Shown: positions 5,349-32,940 of the stretch, piece after piece | How positions within the stretch are numbered: the stretch's first letter is position 1 | Layout of the letters: each line of letters begins with the position of its first letter | Assembly: GCF_032854445.1 (NCBI RefSeq) | Contig: NC_088300.1 | Coordinates: forward strand, 57,200,984 to 57,264,983 | Direction: 5' to 3' | DNA from: Liolophura sinensis | Lineage: Eukaryota; Mollusca; Polyplacophora; Chitonida; Chitonidae | Length of the DNA stretch: 64,000 nucleotides | The notes under the pieces: generated by a model | What the model saw: only the letters and a program-made list of their open reading frames with translations | Told to the model about the DNA's origin: nothing | The model's database searches: none | Position numbers and translations under genes: made by a program

Positions 5349-8300
5349 TCATGTAGATTTGACCTTTCTGGCATGAGCTGATTGACGAGTCCCATTGGAC
5401 ACTCCCTCTCCATTGGACTGCTTGTACATCTGAGTACTGCCATTCTGATACATTAGTTTCTCTTGAGGCAGGATGTCTAGCTTGACATCCCGCTTGATGT
5501 AGAACTTCCAGAAGGTGTACAGGAAAAGGCTGATGAGACCAACAGACCAGAATATGACAACATGCCGAGGCAAGGGCAGGCTGATCAACTCCCAGTCAAA
5601 CTTCAGCGTAATTAGGAACTCTGTGACAATGATACCAGCGATCATCCATGACTGGCGGCCAAATAACTTTATGTTTCTGGAAGAAGTGATCAAAAAACAC
5701 GTTATTTTAGTGATCCTATGGCTTGTCAGCATTCCTCACACAGGTTCAACATAAAATCTCATCAATGCAGTTTAGTCATTAATACAACGCCTGTCTGTAC
5801 AACAATTACAATTTCCCATGATTGCACTCATGATTTTTAAGAGCCATTCTCACAAACTATAAATTCTTTCCTAACACCACTGAGATATGTGAGGTGAAGT
5901 AACTGATAGGTCACTGAAATACACCTATGAGGTGGAGTAACTTATGTATCATCCGAGTGCTGGAAAGTCTTTATGAGGTAAAGAAACTTAAGGGTCACCC
6001 AGTACTGGAAGGTCTTTATAAGGCAGAGAGATTTATGGGTCATCTAAGTACTGGAAGGTCTCTATGGGGTGGAGCAACTTATGGGTCATCCAAGTACTGG
6101 AAGTCTCTATGGAGTGGAGTAACTTATGGGTCATCCAAGTACTGGAAGGTCTCTATGGGTTGGAGTAACTTATGGGTCATCCAAGTACTGGAAGGTCTCT
6201 ATGGGGTGGAGTAACTTACGGGTCATCCAAGTACTGGAAGGTCTCTATGGGGTGAAGTAACTTACGGGTCATCCAAGTACTGGAAGGTCTCTATGGGGTG
6301 GAGTAACTTATGGGTCATCCAAGTACTGGAAGGTCTCTATGGAGTGGAGTAACTTATGGGTCATCCAAGTACTGGAAGGTCTCTATGGAGTGGAGTAACT
6401 TATGGGTTATCCAAGTACTGGAAGGTCTCTATGGGGTGGAGTAACTTATGGGTCATCCAAGTACTGGAAGGTCTCTATGGGGTGGAGTAACTTACAAGTC
6501 ATCCAAGTACTGGAAGGTCTCTATGGGGTGGAGTAACTTACGGGTCATCCAAGTACTGGAAGGTCTTTATGGGGTGGAGTAACTTACGGGTCATCCAAGT
6601 AATGGAAGGCCTCTATGGGGTGGAGTAACTTACGGGTCATCTAAGTACTGGAAGGTCTCTATGAGGTGGAGTAACTTATGGGTCATCCAGTACTGGAAGG
6701 TCTCTATGGAGTGGAGTAACTTATGGGTCATCCAAGTACTGGAAGGTCTCTATGGGGTGGAGTAACTTACGAGTCATCCAAGTACTGGAAGGTCTCTATG
6801 GGGTGGAGTAACTTATGGGTCATCCAAGTACTGGAGGGTCTCTATGAGGTGGAGTAACTTACGGGTCATCTAAGTACTGGAAGGTCTCTATGGAATGGAG
6901 TAACTTACGGGTCATCCAAGTACTGGAAGGTCTCTATGAGGTGGAGTAACTTATGGGTCATCCAAGTACTGGAAGGTCTCTATGGGGTGGAGTAACTTAC
7001 GGGTCATCCAAGTACCGGTACTGGAAGGTCTTTATGGGGTGGAGTAACTTACGGGTCATCCAAGTACTGGAAGGTCTCTATGGGGTGGAGTAACTTACGG
7101 GTCATCCAAGTACTGGAAGGTTTCCCTCATGGCAGCAGCTCCCCAGAACAGGAACAAAACTAGACGACCCAGGCAGAGATAGTGCTCCGGTGGGATCCAC
7201 AGCACAAACTTGAGGTAGAATGTGTTCAGCTCAGCCAACAGAAACTGTTACAAAAATATGACATTATGTACAACCTCAAAAGGAACTGTTACAGAAATAT
7301 GATATAATGTCAAATCTCACCAGGAACTGTTACAGAAATATGACATGGAGTAAAATCTCAAAAGGAACTGTTACAGATATATGATATGGTGTCAAATCTC
7401 AACAGGAACTGTTACAGAAATATGATATGGTGTCAAATCTCAACAGGAACTGTTTCAGAAATATGACATGGTGTAAAATCTCAAAAGGAACTGTTACAGA
7501 AATATGACATGGTGTAAAATCTCAAAAGGAACTGTCACAGAAATATGATATCGTGTCAAATCTCACAAGAAACTTTAAAAAATATGACATGGTGTCAAGT
7601 CTCCACAAAAACTGTTACAGAAGTATGATATCATGGCAAATATCAAAAGAAACTGTTCCAGAAATATGATTTAGTGTCTAACCTCCACAGGAACTGGTAC
7701 AGAAACATAATATGGTGTCAAGTCTAATTCAATCTCCTAGGGTACTATGTACATTCACAGAAAATGGCCTATACAGTAAATGTTGGTCTTCTTAAAACAG
7801 CCATACTAGGGGCTGGTCGATATGGCTTTTTATGTGGCTTTATGCCTTTGAAAGAATAATGAATTGCACATGGTCAAACATAGCTGGTGTGGTAAAGTTC
7901 TTTAAAATAAGAAATGGAAGAAATATCTTTGCTTTTGCTCTTTGTCTCAATGAGATCAATCAATACTTACTATGGATATGACTCCTAACATGGCAAGCCA
8001 GCGCTTAAGGCTTGATGTGGGTCTCCAATCAAAATCTGTCCAGCTATAAGGTGTAAACTGAGCGGCAACTCGCATGAAGCGCCCCCTGGAAATATAAACA
8101 AAACATCACTACAGCAGATATCCATGTGACACGCCTCTGTACACTAAGGGGGATGTTGTGTGAACTTTAAGTCTCAGTCACAGAGTTGTAATTTTAATTG
8201 CAACCTAACATGTAACTTCCATTCTACCGTACATTATTATTTTTATAAAACAAGGTCAAGAGAAAAGAAGATCGTATTTGGTTTAGCAGACTCATAACTC

Positions 8301-11300
8301 GCTTTCAATCTGTCTATCTATTGTGTACATGCGCGGTTAACGAGCATAGTAGAAATCCCTGTGTTGTCACATTTGTGTGAGGTGGACAACTTAGACCAGT
8401 GACGGATTTCCCCTTCTAATTCTCTTAATTGTTATTTTTTGGAAAATATAAGCCTAGAACATTTAGTTTAGTCAACTGCAGCAGCTCATTTTTTAATATA
8501 GTTGAACCAGTTCAAAAATATTCTCGACAATATGAACCTTTTCAACCTTCAGCTGCCTGAAATTTGTCCAAATAATCTGCTTCAGACTTTTCCAAATTAA
8601 CTGCCTGACATTTTCCCAGATAATTGTTCTAATATTTCTTCATATTATTTAATCAGAATTTATTCCATTTATACCATATCTCAAGATTAAGCTTCCACAT
8701 CTTTGCAATGCTAATGAATTGTACACAACCTTTCTTTTTCACCAGAAAAAAGGTTGAAACATAATATCAGAAATTAGTGAAGTAAAACACAAAACTCTAT
8801 CTCACTTGTAAGAGCGTATGTTCCACATTCCTCTCCAATGATAAGGCTTCATGGACAGATACCGCAAGGTCTTCATCCCCAGGAAGATACCAAGGCCATT
8901 ACACACAAGGGCATCCATAATCCACTGCAAGGGTAAGTCAGACGAGCAGGCATGTACATGTATACGAGCTGTGTAACAAGGAACTGCGCTAACAGCTGTT
9001 ATTATCGGTTGTTTGGTTTTCTAACATGTTTCAATGAAATGTTATGCTCAAGATATCAGGCATCGTGCCCAATTCCACTACACTGTAACAACATCAGGTG
9101 GACCAGTCCTTAGTGTCCTAGAGTTACCATATACCTGGTCCTTACCACTGTTTCATGTCAATCCTGATTAATACTTTTGTTTGAAGTTCAGCGTTCAAAC
9201 CTTGCTTTTGTTAGTACTTCCTTGGTCTTCAGTCAAGTTGGTAATTTACAATTCTCTGAAATTTTGTGATTTTTGACAATCATAAACACAAACAGAAATT
9301 TCATTCAAACACAAGGAAACTATTTAAGCTAATATCAACCACTGAACTTCCAAATACATTGGCTTGTAGATGTATTCTATGCTTGTGCTTGAATGCTTGT
9401 GTATGTATTCTATGCTTTTGCTAGTATGCTTGTGTGTGTATTTTATGCTTGTGCTTGTATGCTTGTGTATGTATTCTATGCTTGTGCTTGTATGCTTGTA
9501 TATGCATTACACATGCCCTAGACTAGAATAGATAATATTTTTACTCACATGATCCCACCAGCACTCGCTGAAGTTAGGCAACTGATGCTCTAGAGTGTAC
9601 TCCAGGATCTCAAACATAATACTGATAACAGTACACAGCCACCAGTCACGCAGGATAAGCGTCTGAAACGTGCAATTTACATATTTATTTATTTACATGA
9701 ATTGTGTTCAATGCTTATCAGATTTAAGGGTGGGTGAAACCATAGCAGTAAACTACCTCCCATTACCAAGGACCTGACAGGCTTCCTGACTTCTAGCCAT
9801 CATAGTATTAAACCATCACCCATTACCATGGACCTGACAGGCTTCCTGACTTCTAGCCACCATAGTAGTAAACCACCACCCATTACGAGGGACTTGACAG
9901 GCTTCCTGACTTCTAGCCACCATAGTAGTAAACCACCACCCATTACCATGGACCAGACAGGTTTCCTGACTTCTAGCCACCATAGTAGTAAACCACCACC
10001 CATTACGAGGGACTTGACAGGCTTCCTGACTTCTAGCCACCATAGTAGTAAACCACCACCCATTACCAGGGACATGACAGGCTTCCTGACTTCTAGCCAC
10101 CATAGTAGTAAACCAACACCCATTACCATGGACCAGACAGGCTTCCTGACTTCTAGCCACCACAGTAGTAAACCATCACCCATTACCATGGACCAGACAG
10201 GCTTCCTGACTTCTAGCCACCACAGTAGTAAACCAACACCCATTACCAGGGACATGACAGGCTTCCTGACTTCTAGCCACCATAGTAGTAAACCATCACC
10301 CATTACCATGGACCAGACAGGCTTCCTGATTTCTAGCCACCACAGTAGTAAACCAACACCCATTACCAGGGACCTGACATGCTTCCTGACTTCTAGCCAC
10401 CATCTAAACATGCCAGATCTGGATTTTGCCTCCCATATCACTTATTGTTAAGGGACTCAGCAACTGCGATGGAAGCAATGCATTAAAAATCCAGCAAAGG
10501 ACTCCATTTCATGTACATGTATCGATTTCTTCTGTTGTTCGTTTCCATTTCAACACTTTCACGTATGAGAGACACTATGGCCAGTTCTTGATCAACAAAT
10601 TCAGGTATGGAGAATTACTTGCAGACAAGCACAGTTGTCCCACTATATTGTGCATTTGCTGAGGAAGTGAGCTATTGTTCTGACTTCCAATGATGATCAC
10701 AATACACTTACTTTCAACCACCAGCCAAAGAAGTGCACCACAACAAACCCATCCATTTTGTCCTGAAAGAGAAACATATACACAAGTTACAAATTAAAAT
10801 GTCACAAAGCATTAATATCATTCGCAATTAATCAGGGTACATTAAAAAAAATGTACATCAAAGATCGGGAATTGTCCGGGATAAACTCCTGCTATGTGAA
10901 ATAATCAAAGAAGTTTCCATTCAGAAAAAGCATGGCGCAGATGTACCAGCGTTCAGTTTACACCTGAACACAAATACATGTATGTAGTTGTATACACAGG
11001 TAATGAGTACAATGTTCAGGTTACTCACTTTGATGTTGTGGAAAGGATCTTCATGTGATGGATCATACAGGTAGCAGTTTCCTCCATAATCCTTTTCTGG
11101 CAGTGGTTTCCCAAGATTCTCATCAAAATGCTTCATCAAATGGCGGGCATGGTCTACAGTCTGGTGAAAATAAAATAAATCATGTGATCAAGGTGTAGTA
11201 AAACTGGTCATGACAGTAGCAAAAATACTGTACTAAGAATGATTTCATGGCCGACCTTAGCAAAACTGAATTTAATGACTTTTTCGCACCTGTTCTGATA

Positions 11301-18657: not shown

Positions 18658-19425
18658 GCAGCTCTTTTGTCCTGTGATAAAACAGGTATATGTACCTGGC
18701 AAGGTGTTATGGTTTACCCCAAGCTTTGTCCTGTGATAAGACAAGTACCTGGCAAGGCATGGTGGTTTACCCCCAGCTCTGTCCTGCGATAAGACAGGTG
18801 GCTGGCAAGGCATGGTGGTTTACCCCCAGCTTTGTCCTGTGATAAGACAGGCACCTGGCAAGGCATGATGGTTTACCCCCAGCTTTGTCCTGTGAGAAGA
18901 CAGGTACCTGGCAAAGTGTGGTGGTTTACCCTTAGCTTTGTCCTGTGATAAGACTGGTACTTGGCAAGGCATGATGGTTTACCCTTAGCTTTGTCCTGTG
19001 ATAAGACAGGTGGCTGGCAAGGTGTGGTGGTTTACCCTCAGCTTTGTCCTGTGATAAGGCAGGTACTTGGCAAGGCATGGTGGTTTAACCCCAGCTTTGT
19101 CCTGTGAGAAGACAGGTACCTGGCAAGGCATGATGGTTTACCCTTAGCTTTGTCCTGTGATAAGACAGGTGGCTGGCAAGGTGTGGTGGTTTACCCTCAG
19201 CTTTGTCCTGTGATAAGGCAGGTACTTGGCAAGGCATGGTGGTTTAACCCCAGCTTTGTCCTGTGAGAAGACAGGTACCTGGCAAGGTGTGGTGGTTTAC
19301 CCTTAGCTTTGTCCTGTGTTAAGACAGGTACTTGGCAAGGCATGGTGGTTTACCCCCAGCTTTGTCCTGTGAGAAGACAGGTACCTGGCAAGGTGTGGTG
19401 GTTTACCCCCAGCTTTGAGAAAAAA
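18658..19425. repeat. 53-bp minisatellite, about 14 copies
   Basis: The unit contains CTTTGTCCTGTGATAAGACA, then GGTACCTGGCAAGGCATGGT, then GGTTTACCCCCAG. Variants alternate (TACCTGG or TGGCTGG; GGCATGG or GGTGTGG), and one two- to three-unit block is nearly identical at two places, so it expanded in blocks. It abuts a SINE tail. Confidence 0.93.
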
Positions 19426-31966: not shown

Positions 31967-32940
31967 GGAAAGGAACTCTTTTGTTCTGAGTCAGATAGGT
32001 CTCCTGGTGACAAGACTGGATGGAAACCCTCCCTTGTTCTGGATCAGATAGGTCTCCTGGTGAGAGGGCTGGATGCAAATCTTCACTTGTTCTGTCAGAA
32101 AAGTCTCGTGGTGGGAAGGCTGGACGGAAATCCTCACTTGTCAGATAGGTTTCATGGTGAGAAGACTGGCTGCAATCCTCACTTGTTCTGAGTCCTATAG
32201 GTTGCAAGATGAGAAGGCTGGGTGCAAATCCTCACTTGTTCTGAGTCACATAGGTCTCTTGGTGAGAAGGCTGGATGTAAATCTTCACTTGTCCTTAGAC
32301 AAATAGCTCTCAAGGTGACAAGACTGGACAGAAATTCTCACATGTTCTGAGTCAGATAGGTCTCATGGTGAGGACTAGACAGAAATCATCACTTGTTCTG
32401 AGTCAGATAGGTGGTGAGGACTGGACAGAAATCATCACTTGTTCTGAGTCAGATAGGTCTCGTGGTGAGGACTAGACGGAAATCCTCGCTTGTTCCGAGA
32501 CAAATAGCTCTCAAGGTGAGAAGACTAGACAGAAATCTTCACTTGTTCCGAGTCAGATAGATCTCCTGGTGAGGACTGGACAGAAATCCTCACTTGTTCT
32601 GAGTCAGATAGGTCTCGTGGTGAGGACTGGACAGAAATCCTCACTTGTTCTGAGTCAGATAGGTCTCCTGGTGAGAAGACTGGACAGAAATCCTCACTTG
32701 TTCTGAGTCAGGTCTTGTGGTGAGGACTGGACAGAAATCCTCACTTGTTCTGAGTCAGATAGGTCTCATGGTGAGGACTGGACGGAAAACTTTCCCGTTT
32801 TCTGAGTCAGATAGGTCTCGTGCTGAGAAGACCGGGCAGAAATCCTCACTTGTTCTGAGTCAGAATGGTCTCTCACTGAGAAGACTGCATGTGTTTCCAT
32901 ATACTAGCCCTGACTTGTTTTGGATCTGATAGGCCTTTCG
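31967..32940. repeat. 50-53-bp minisatellite, about 17 copies
   Basis: The unit contains ACTTGTTCTGAGTCAGATAG, then GTCTCCTGGTGAGAAGACTG, then GACAGAAATCCTC. Several units lack three bases (GAGGACTGG for GAGAAGACTGG). Left-hand units are more diverged than the centre. There is no exon nearby. Confidence 0.92.

Follow-up and report, generated by a model that had tools for sequence, protein, structure and literature searches.

In human IFI6 (6-16), a minisatellite carries multiple splice donor sites, on the donor side only. The closest described systems are the so-called mirages of amphioxus, tandem repeats that run across an exon-intron boundary and that can duplicate the 5′ as well as the 3′ boundary; according to the accessible parts of the report, those in the globin genes have units of variable length and show length instability, while RT-PCR suggested regular splicing (PMC3087553). 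The amphioxus gene PGBD5 has repeats at the splice sites of two exons, as described in the accessible text (PMC3902484). In humans, the available sections of one report describe a 31-bp VNTR across the end of an exon of CBS, present in 16–21 copies, together with a junction duplication, 844ins68 (PMC2630376); we read the numbering of this VNTR, c.1444_1467+7, as 24 exon and 7 intron bases. Finally, boundary minisatellites in human segmental duplications can yield novel introns and alternative splicing, as stated in the part of that report that is accessible (PMC2812944).

The stretch of DNA analyzed here, called the window throughout, comprises 64,000 nucleotides of a chiton genome, whose assembly was published under the name Liolophura japonica (PMC11068029), the species being corrected later to L. 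sinensis (PMC12441733). The minus strand of the window contains a phosphatidylserine synthase gene, for which we placed seven C-terminal coding exons by eye. Synthase 2 was the best match of the conceptual protein obtained by joining these exons, which scored 428 bits (E 2.7e-127) against 9n0x_A, a solved phosphatidylserine synthase 2, compared with 155 bits against synthase 1; against the Pfam family PSS it scored 339 bits. The gene is referred to as PTDSS2, and its features that matter here are the following (positions in the window):

5349..5676, minus strand: final PTDSS2 coding exon, stop codon included
5925..7124, minus strand: minisatellite (mirage) on the donor side, with 26 units of 46 bp, starting in the exon and continuing into the intron downstream
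7093..7101, minus strand: working 5′ splice site CCC/GTAAGT in the exon-touching unit, predicted to be used in the mRNA
7099..7244, minus strand: PTDSS2 coding exon between the arrays, 146 bp, last but one among the seven placed C-terminal coding exons
7236..7725, minus strand: minisatellite (mirage) on the acceptor side, with 12 units of 41 bp
7245..7246, minus strand: AG of the working 3′ splice site TAACAG/TTTCTG in the exon-touching unit, likewise predicted to be used
7971..8085, minus strand: PTDSS2 exon upstream of the array-flanked exon, neither splice site inside a listed tandem array

A preliminary description of the window had placed two minisatellites on either side of a single PTDSS2 exon, and the arrays are indeed found there, at 5925–7124 and 7236–7725. 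Among the 13 splice sites in the seven placed exons, the two that fall in a listed array both belong to the exon at 7099–7244. Tandem Repeats Finder gave 26.0 copies of the 46-bp unit and 12.0 copies of the 41-bp unit, in agreement with the earlier estimates of about 26 and about 12, while the bounds of the arrays were taken from cyclic alignment. Array alignment and unit composition also bear out the proposal that each array was amplified from one splice junction of this same exon. The donor unit had been correctly described as the end of the exon joined to the start of the intron, but its two parts measure 24 and 22 bp, not 23 and 23; the acceptor unit consists of 32 bp of intron end and 9 bp of exon start. 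The preliminary description had named a match between unit and exon no better than chance as grounds for giving up the claim. The exon-touching acceptor unit agrees with the consensus of its array in 33 of 41 positions, whereas 5,000 shuffles gave a mean of 12.2 and a maximum of 23.

The tandem copies of each junction segment are confined to the intron side, with the exon-touching copy as the coding edge. As had been proposed, these exon-touching units probably hold the working splice sites, judging by reading frame and homology: the alignment with 9n0x_A continues across both edges of the exon and shows identity at FLL, encoded by the exonic bases of the acceptor unit, and at DDP, with which the exonic bases of the donor unit end. 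Considering that these exonic bases code for protein and lie inside this alignment, the exon sequence most likely served as the template and the array as the copy. Within each array, the units differ from each other by scattered substitutions. When the genome was searched with the 46-bp unit, all 13 matches fell inside the donor array (the search ignores very common words). The 46-bp and 41-bp units are unrelated to one another (local score 9.0, shuffled mean 11.1, P 0.90), from which it follows that the two arrays arose separately.

The exon is thereby surrounded by decoy splice sites. The preliminary description spoke of dozens of them, but some units no longer qualify: all 11 decoy acceptors retain AG, while GT is retained in 11 of the 25 decoy donors, fewer than had been claimed; nine of the 25 contain the 9-mer of the real donor, CCCGTAAGT. 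All 14 losses of GT are at position +1, and in 13 of these 14 decoys, CA stands in place of the CG of the working junction. Across the window, the observed/expected ratio is 0.46 for CpG and 1.28 for TpG+CpA, a depletion and an excess of the kind that would be expected of methylated DNA. Because the +1 G of CCC/GTAAGT lies in a CpG, the loss of GT from about half of the decoy donors is most simply explained by CpG decay. Selection against decoys could also explain the variability of +1, which is the second most variable position of the 46-bp unit, and the donor array of L003 (one of the loci sampled below), where none of the three decoys has GT. Nine other donor arrays, L081 included, have GT in 63 of 70 decoys, which speaks against a general purging of decoys; in the donor array of L021, it is present in 20 of 21. 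Altogether, GT retention across arrays gave no clear signal of selection for or against decoys.

Other arrays were seen elsewhere in the window. By eye, the units of those at 9739–10403 (60 bp) and 18692–19417 (53 bp) resemble each other, on opposite strands, and the two arrays perhaps derive from a dispersed repeat. A further 53-bp array at 31981–32887, with about 18 copies, has a unit that contains the donor-like ATGGTGAGAAG.

A search for the PSS family identified a second gene in the genome, in which one exon stretch was matched repeatedly at 94-bp steps. This gene is PTDSS1 (G000:C3), with 165 bits to synthase 1 and 85 to synthase 2, and it has donor-derived arrays at two exons:

L001 2088 to L084 415: PTDSS1 94-bp donor array continuing into a 115-bp array, together about 2.8 kb
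L001 1490–1631: PTDSS1 60-bp donor duplication at another exon

In a PTDSS1 intron, away from the matched exon, there is also a 22-bp array (L084 5395–5700 and L002 1–87) whose unit, CCTACAGGTATA, contains an AG/GT-like motif.

The frequency of splice sites in arrays was estimated on the genome assembly (632 contigs, 609,464,459 bases), using loci of about 3.2 kb each that were chosen by match score and with repeats ignored: the best 25 of 132 kinesin matches, 28 of 50 chaperonin matches and 28 of 81 myosin matches. Arrays with a period of 15 or more make up 13.6% of the 263,328 sampled bases, a share in which some arrays are counted twice owing to overlapping loci (e.g., L003/L012 and L004/L019). 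Splice sites were placed with a simple weight matrix, whose values were untrained on these data. L028 and L029 were left out (long single open frames, with no placed site in an array), as were 3 donors and 6 acceptors that scored below 4 or were not found, among which a misplaced L043 donor was the only array-borne one. The final sample consisted of 79 loci from three families, with 76 donors and 73 acceptors (149 sites). Eight of the 149 sites lie inside arrays (6/76 donors and 2/73 acceptors), at the following loci:

Array-borne donors: L003, L021, L034, L042, L045, L073
Array-borne acceptors: L008, L043

The acceptor array of L043 goes no further than the AG and the first one or two exon bases. 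Both ends of the locus exon lay in arrays in none of the 79 sampled loci, the L043 donor being judged by eye. L043 was considered as a second pair and rejected: its acceptor array is a mirage, but the 27-bp array across the exon from it begins about 12 bp inside the intron (by eye) and does not include the donor. The weight matrix had placed that donor elsewhere, inside the array, with a score of 1.3, and this placement was dropped. L081 looks donor-derived, but it is degenerate and its array begins 59 bp into the intron, which puts it outside the eight. In L004, L019, L041, L065, L070, L075 and L079, arrays lie near the exon without spanning the site. The mirages of L034, L042 and L043 (two donors, one acceptor) are found within about 6.5 kb on one strand (G000:C8, ~53.406–53.412 Mb), apparently in a single chaperonin subunit gene, and the eight array-borne sites are thus not all independent. 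The array at the L034 donor (oriented position 1690) has a unit of 66 bp, a length divisible by three, and its frame meets no stop for 144 codons beyond the donor; decoy donors, if used, would thus add in-frame 22-residue repeats.

These counts raise the possibility that minisatellites of this genome arise preferentially at splice junctions, for instance owing to pausing or R-loops at the edges of exons, and that a targeted process lies behind the PTDSS2 pair. The numbers of array-borne donors and acceptors given above speak for this, as does a comparison with random seeding: unit-sized seeds are expected to give 3.2 junction matches against the 8 observed (P 0.014 in 2,000 simulations, about 2.5-fold), and a simple product estimate gives 2.9. 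Random rotation of whole arrays, however, predicts 21.8 matches, with 8 or fewer in 0 of 2,000 rotations; such a shortfall relative to whole-array placement would be expected if growth into exons is barred to arrays. Also against it, array edges within 100 bp of the sites number 5 on the exon side and 6 on the intron side of donors (the L042 spanning row was dropped from this count as redundant; moving L042 would make it 6 and 5), and 2 and 4, respectively, for acceptors. With the clustering on C8 also counting against it, the excess of junctions over random seeding is at most modest, and we hold a preferred birthplace to be unlikely. As a rough estimate built on the 6/76 donors and 2/73 acceptors, that is, on two acceptor events, both ends would lie in arrays by chance in about 0.2% of exons, which would amount to hundreds of cases genome-wide. 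At such a rate, the PTDSS2 pair needs no special cause, and it is probably a coincidence and not a special device.

The explanation that we prefer, with a probability of roughly 0.8, is that of two independent mirage births in a minisatellite-rich genome, tolerated as passengers while the exon-touching copy was kept. Slippage or unequal exchange would have caused an initial tandem duplication across each junction, which would then have grown into an array. Selection would retain the exon-touching copy, because its sequence codes for protein and fixes the frame, and array growth would in this way be directed into the intron; splicing would take place at the exon-touching sites, and the arrays would thus be mere passengers. 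The junction matches in excess of the random-seed expectation count against this explanation, in that junctions might be favored birthplaces. The arrays could instead act as a splicing switch, in which decoys compete with the real sites and premature stops reduce PTDSS2 output. The nine decoys with the 9-mer of the real donor would fit such a switch, and so would the consequences of missplicing: read-through of the real donor meets a stop at once (CCG TAA), 10 of the 11 upstream acceptors lead into a stop codon in 30 codons or fewer, and use of the closest one, 41 bp away, changes the frame. Early stops in introns arise by chance anyway, however, the GT is lost in 14 of the 25 decoy donors, and comparable arrays exist at kinesin, chaperonin and myosin genes without evident shared regulation, all of which makes a switch quite improbable. 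Tandem arrays are a common site of misassembly, and the contig of the window, C6 (82,489,547), falls short of the published scaffold_2 by 3,673 bp (published total 609,495,693). An assembly artefact nevertheless seems very improbable: the HiFi reads, with a mean of 8,347 bp at 14x according to the accessible part of the genome report (PMC11068029), exceed the 1.8-kb stretch, the substitutions between units are scattered, and the same pattern recurs at other loci. We give the least credence to a dispersed mobile element inserted beside the exon as the source of the units. The two look-alike arrays at 9739–10403 and 18692–19417, which may stem from a dispersed repeat, could be taken as a hint of one, but the 46-bp unit holds PTDSS2 coding sequence and was found, by the search that ignores very common words, at the PTDSS2 locus only, and the 46-bp and 41-bp units are dissimilar.

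Beyond this locus, we tentatively raise a wider idea, which we consider rather doubtful: that several percent of all splice sites in chitons, thousands in number, bear mirages because minisatellites arise preferentially at exon edges, and that splicing ignores the decoys by position alone. If true, up to twenty near-identical decoys are ignored at a single exon (L021), a natural experiment on the choice of a splice site among copies, and some cases, such as L034 with its 66-bp unit, could feed repeats into protein. If the share of 8 in 149 holds genome-wide, splice-site minisatellites are routine in a mollusc and no curiosity of amphioxus. With near-identical competing donors and acceptors, some of them in housekeeping genes, one could ask of existing RNA data how position decides the use of one among many similar splice sites, and whether the arrays contribute to alternative splicing or to the origin of introns.

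In their structure, the PTDSS2 arrays resemble the amphioxus mirages of Adh3, BflGb6, BflGb9, PGBD5 and troponin C, which span the exon-intron boundary in the same manner and, in the accessible parts of the reports, have AG/GT signals in many units and units of 10 to 160 bp (PMC3087553, PMC3902484). Here, too, the unit runs across the boundary (24 + 22 bp and 32 + 9 bp), the exon-touching copy represents the authentic boundary and the others are intronic, as far as frame and homology indicate, and splice signals are present in many, not all, units (GT 11/25, AG 11/11). The preliminary description had set this exon apart from known cases; that view is not supported, in light of the amphioxus mirages at 5′ and 3′ boundaries and of the 8/149 sites and two PTDSS1 donors in this genome. 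What differs from amphioxus is the mollusc host, the involvement of both boundaries of one exon, and the numbers of 26 and 12 units. The CBS VNTR and 844ins68 each amplify one boundary and are polymorphic in people, whereas both boundaries of the PTDSS2 exon are amplified. The boundary repeats of human segmental duplications were compared between recent paralogues, and the accessible part of that report does not describe an exon with both ends amplified (PMC2812944); the PTDSS2 arrays sit in the two introns that flank the exon. Intron gain by tandem duplication would mean a new intron formed within a former exon by a duplicated AG/GT. Among the matches listed in our literature search, in which subscription papers are mostly uncovered and absence therefore weighs little, there was neither a mollusc mirage nor an exon amplified at both ends, and the accessible parts of papers on a chiton genome, an earthworm, a nematode and cone-snail gene structure likewise contained no mirage or both-ends case. 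The kind of repeat is thus a known one, while its host group and its abundance look new.
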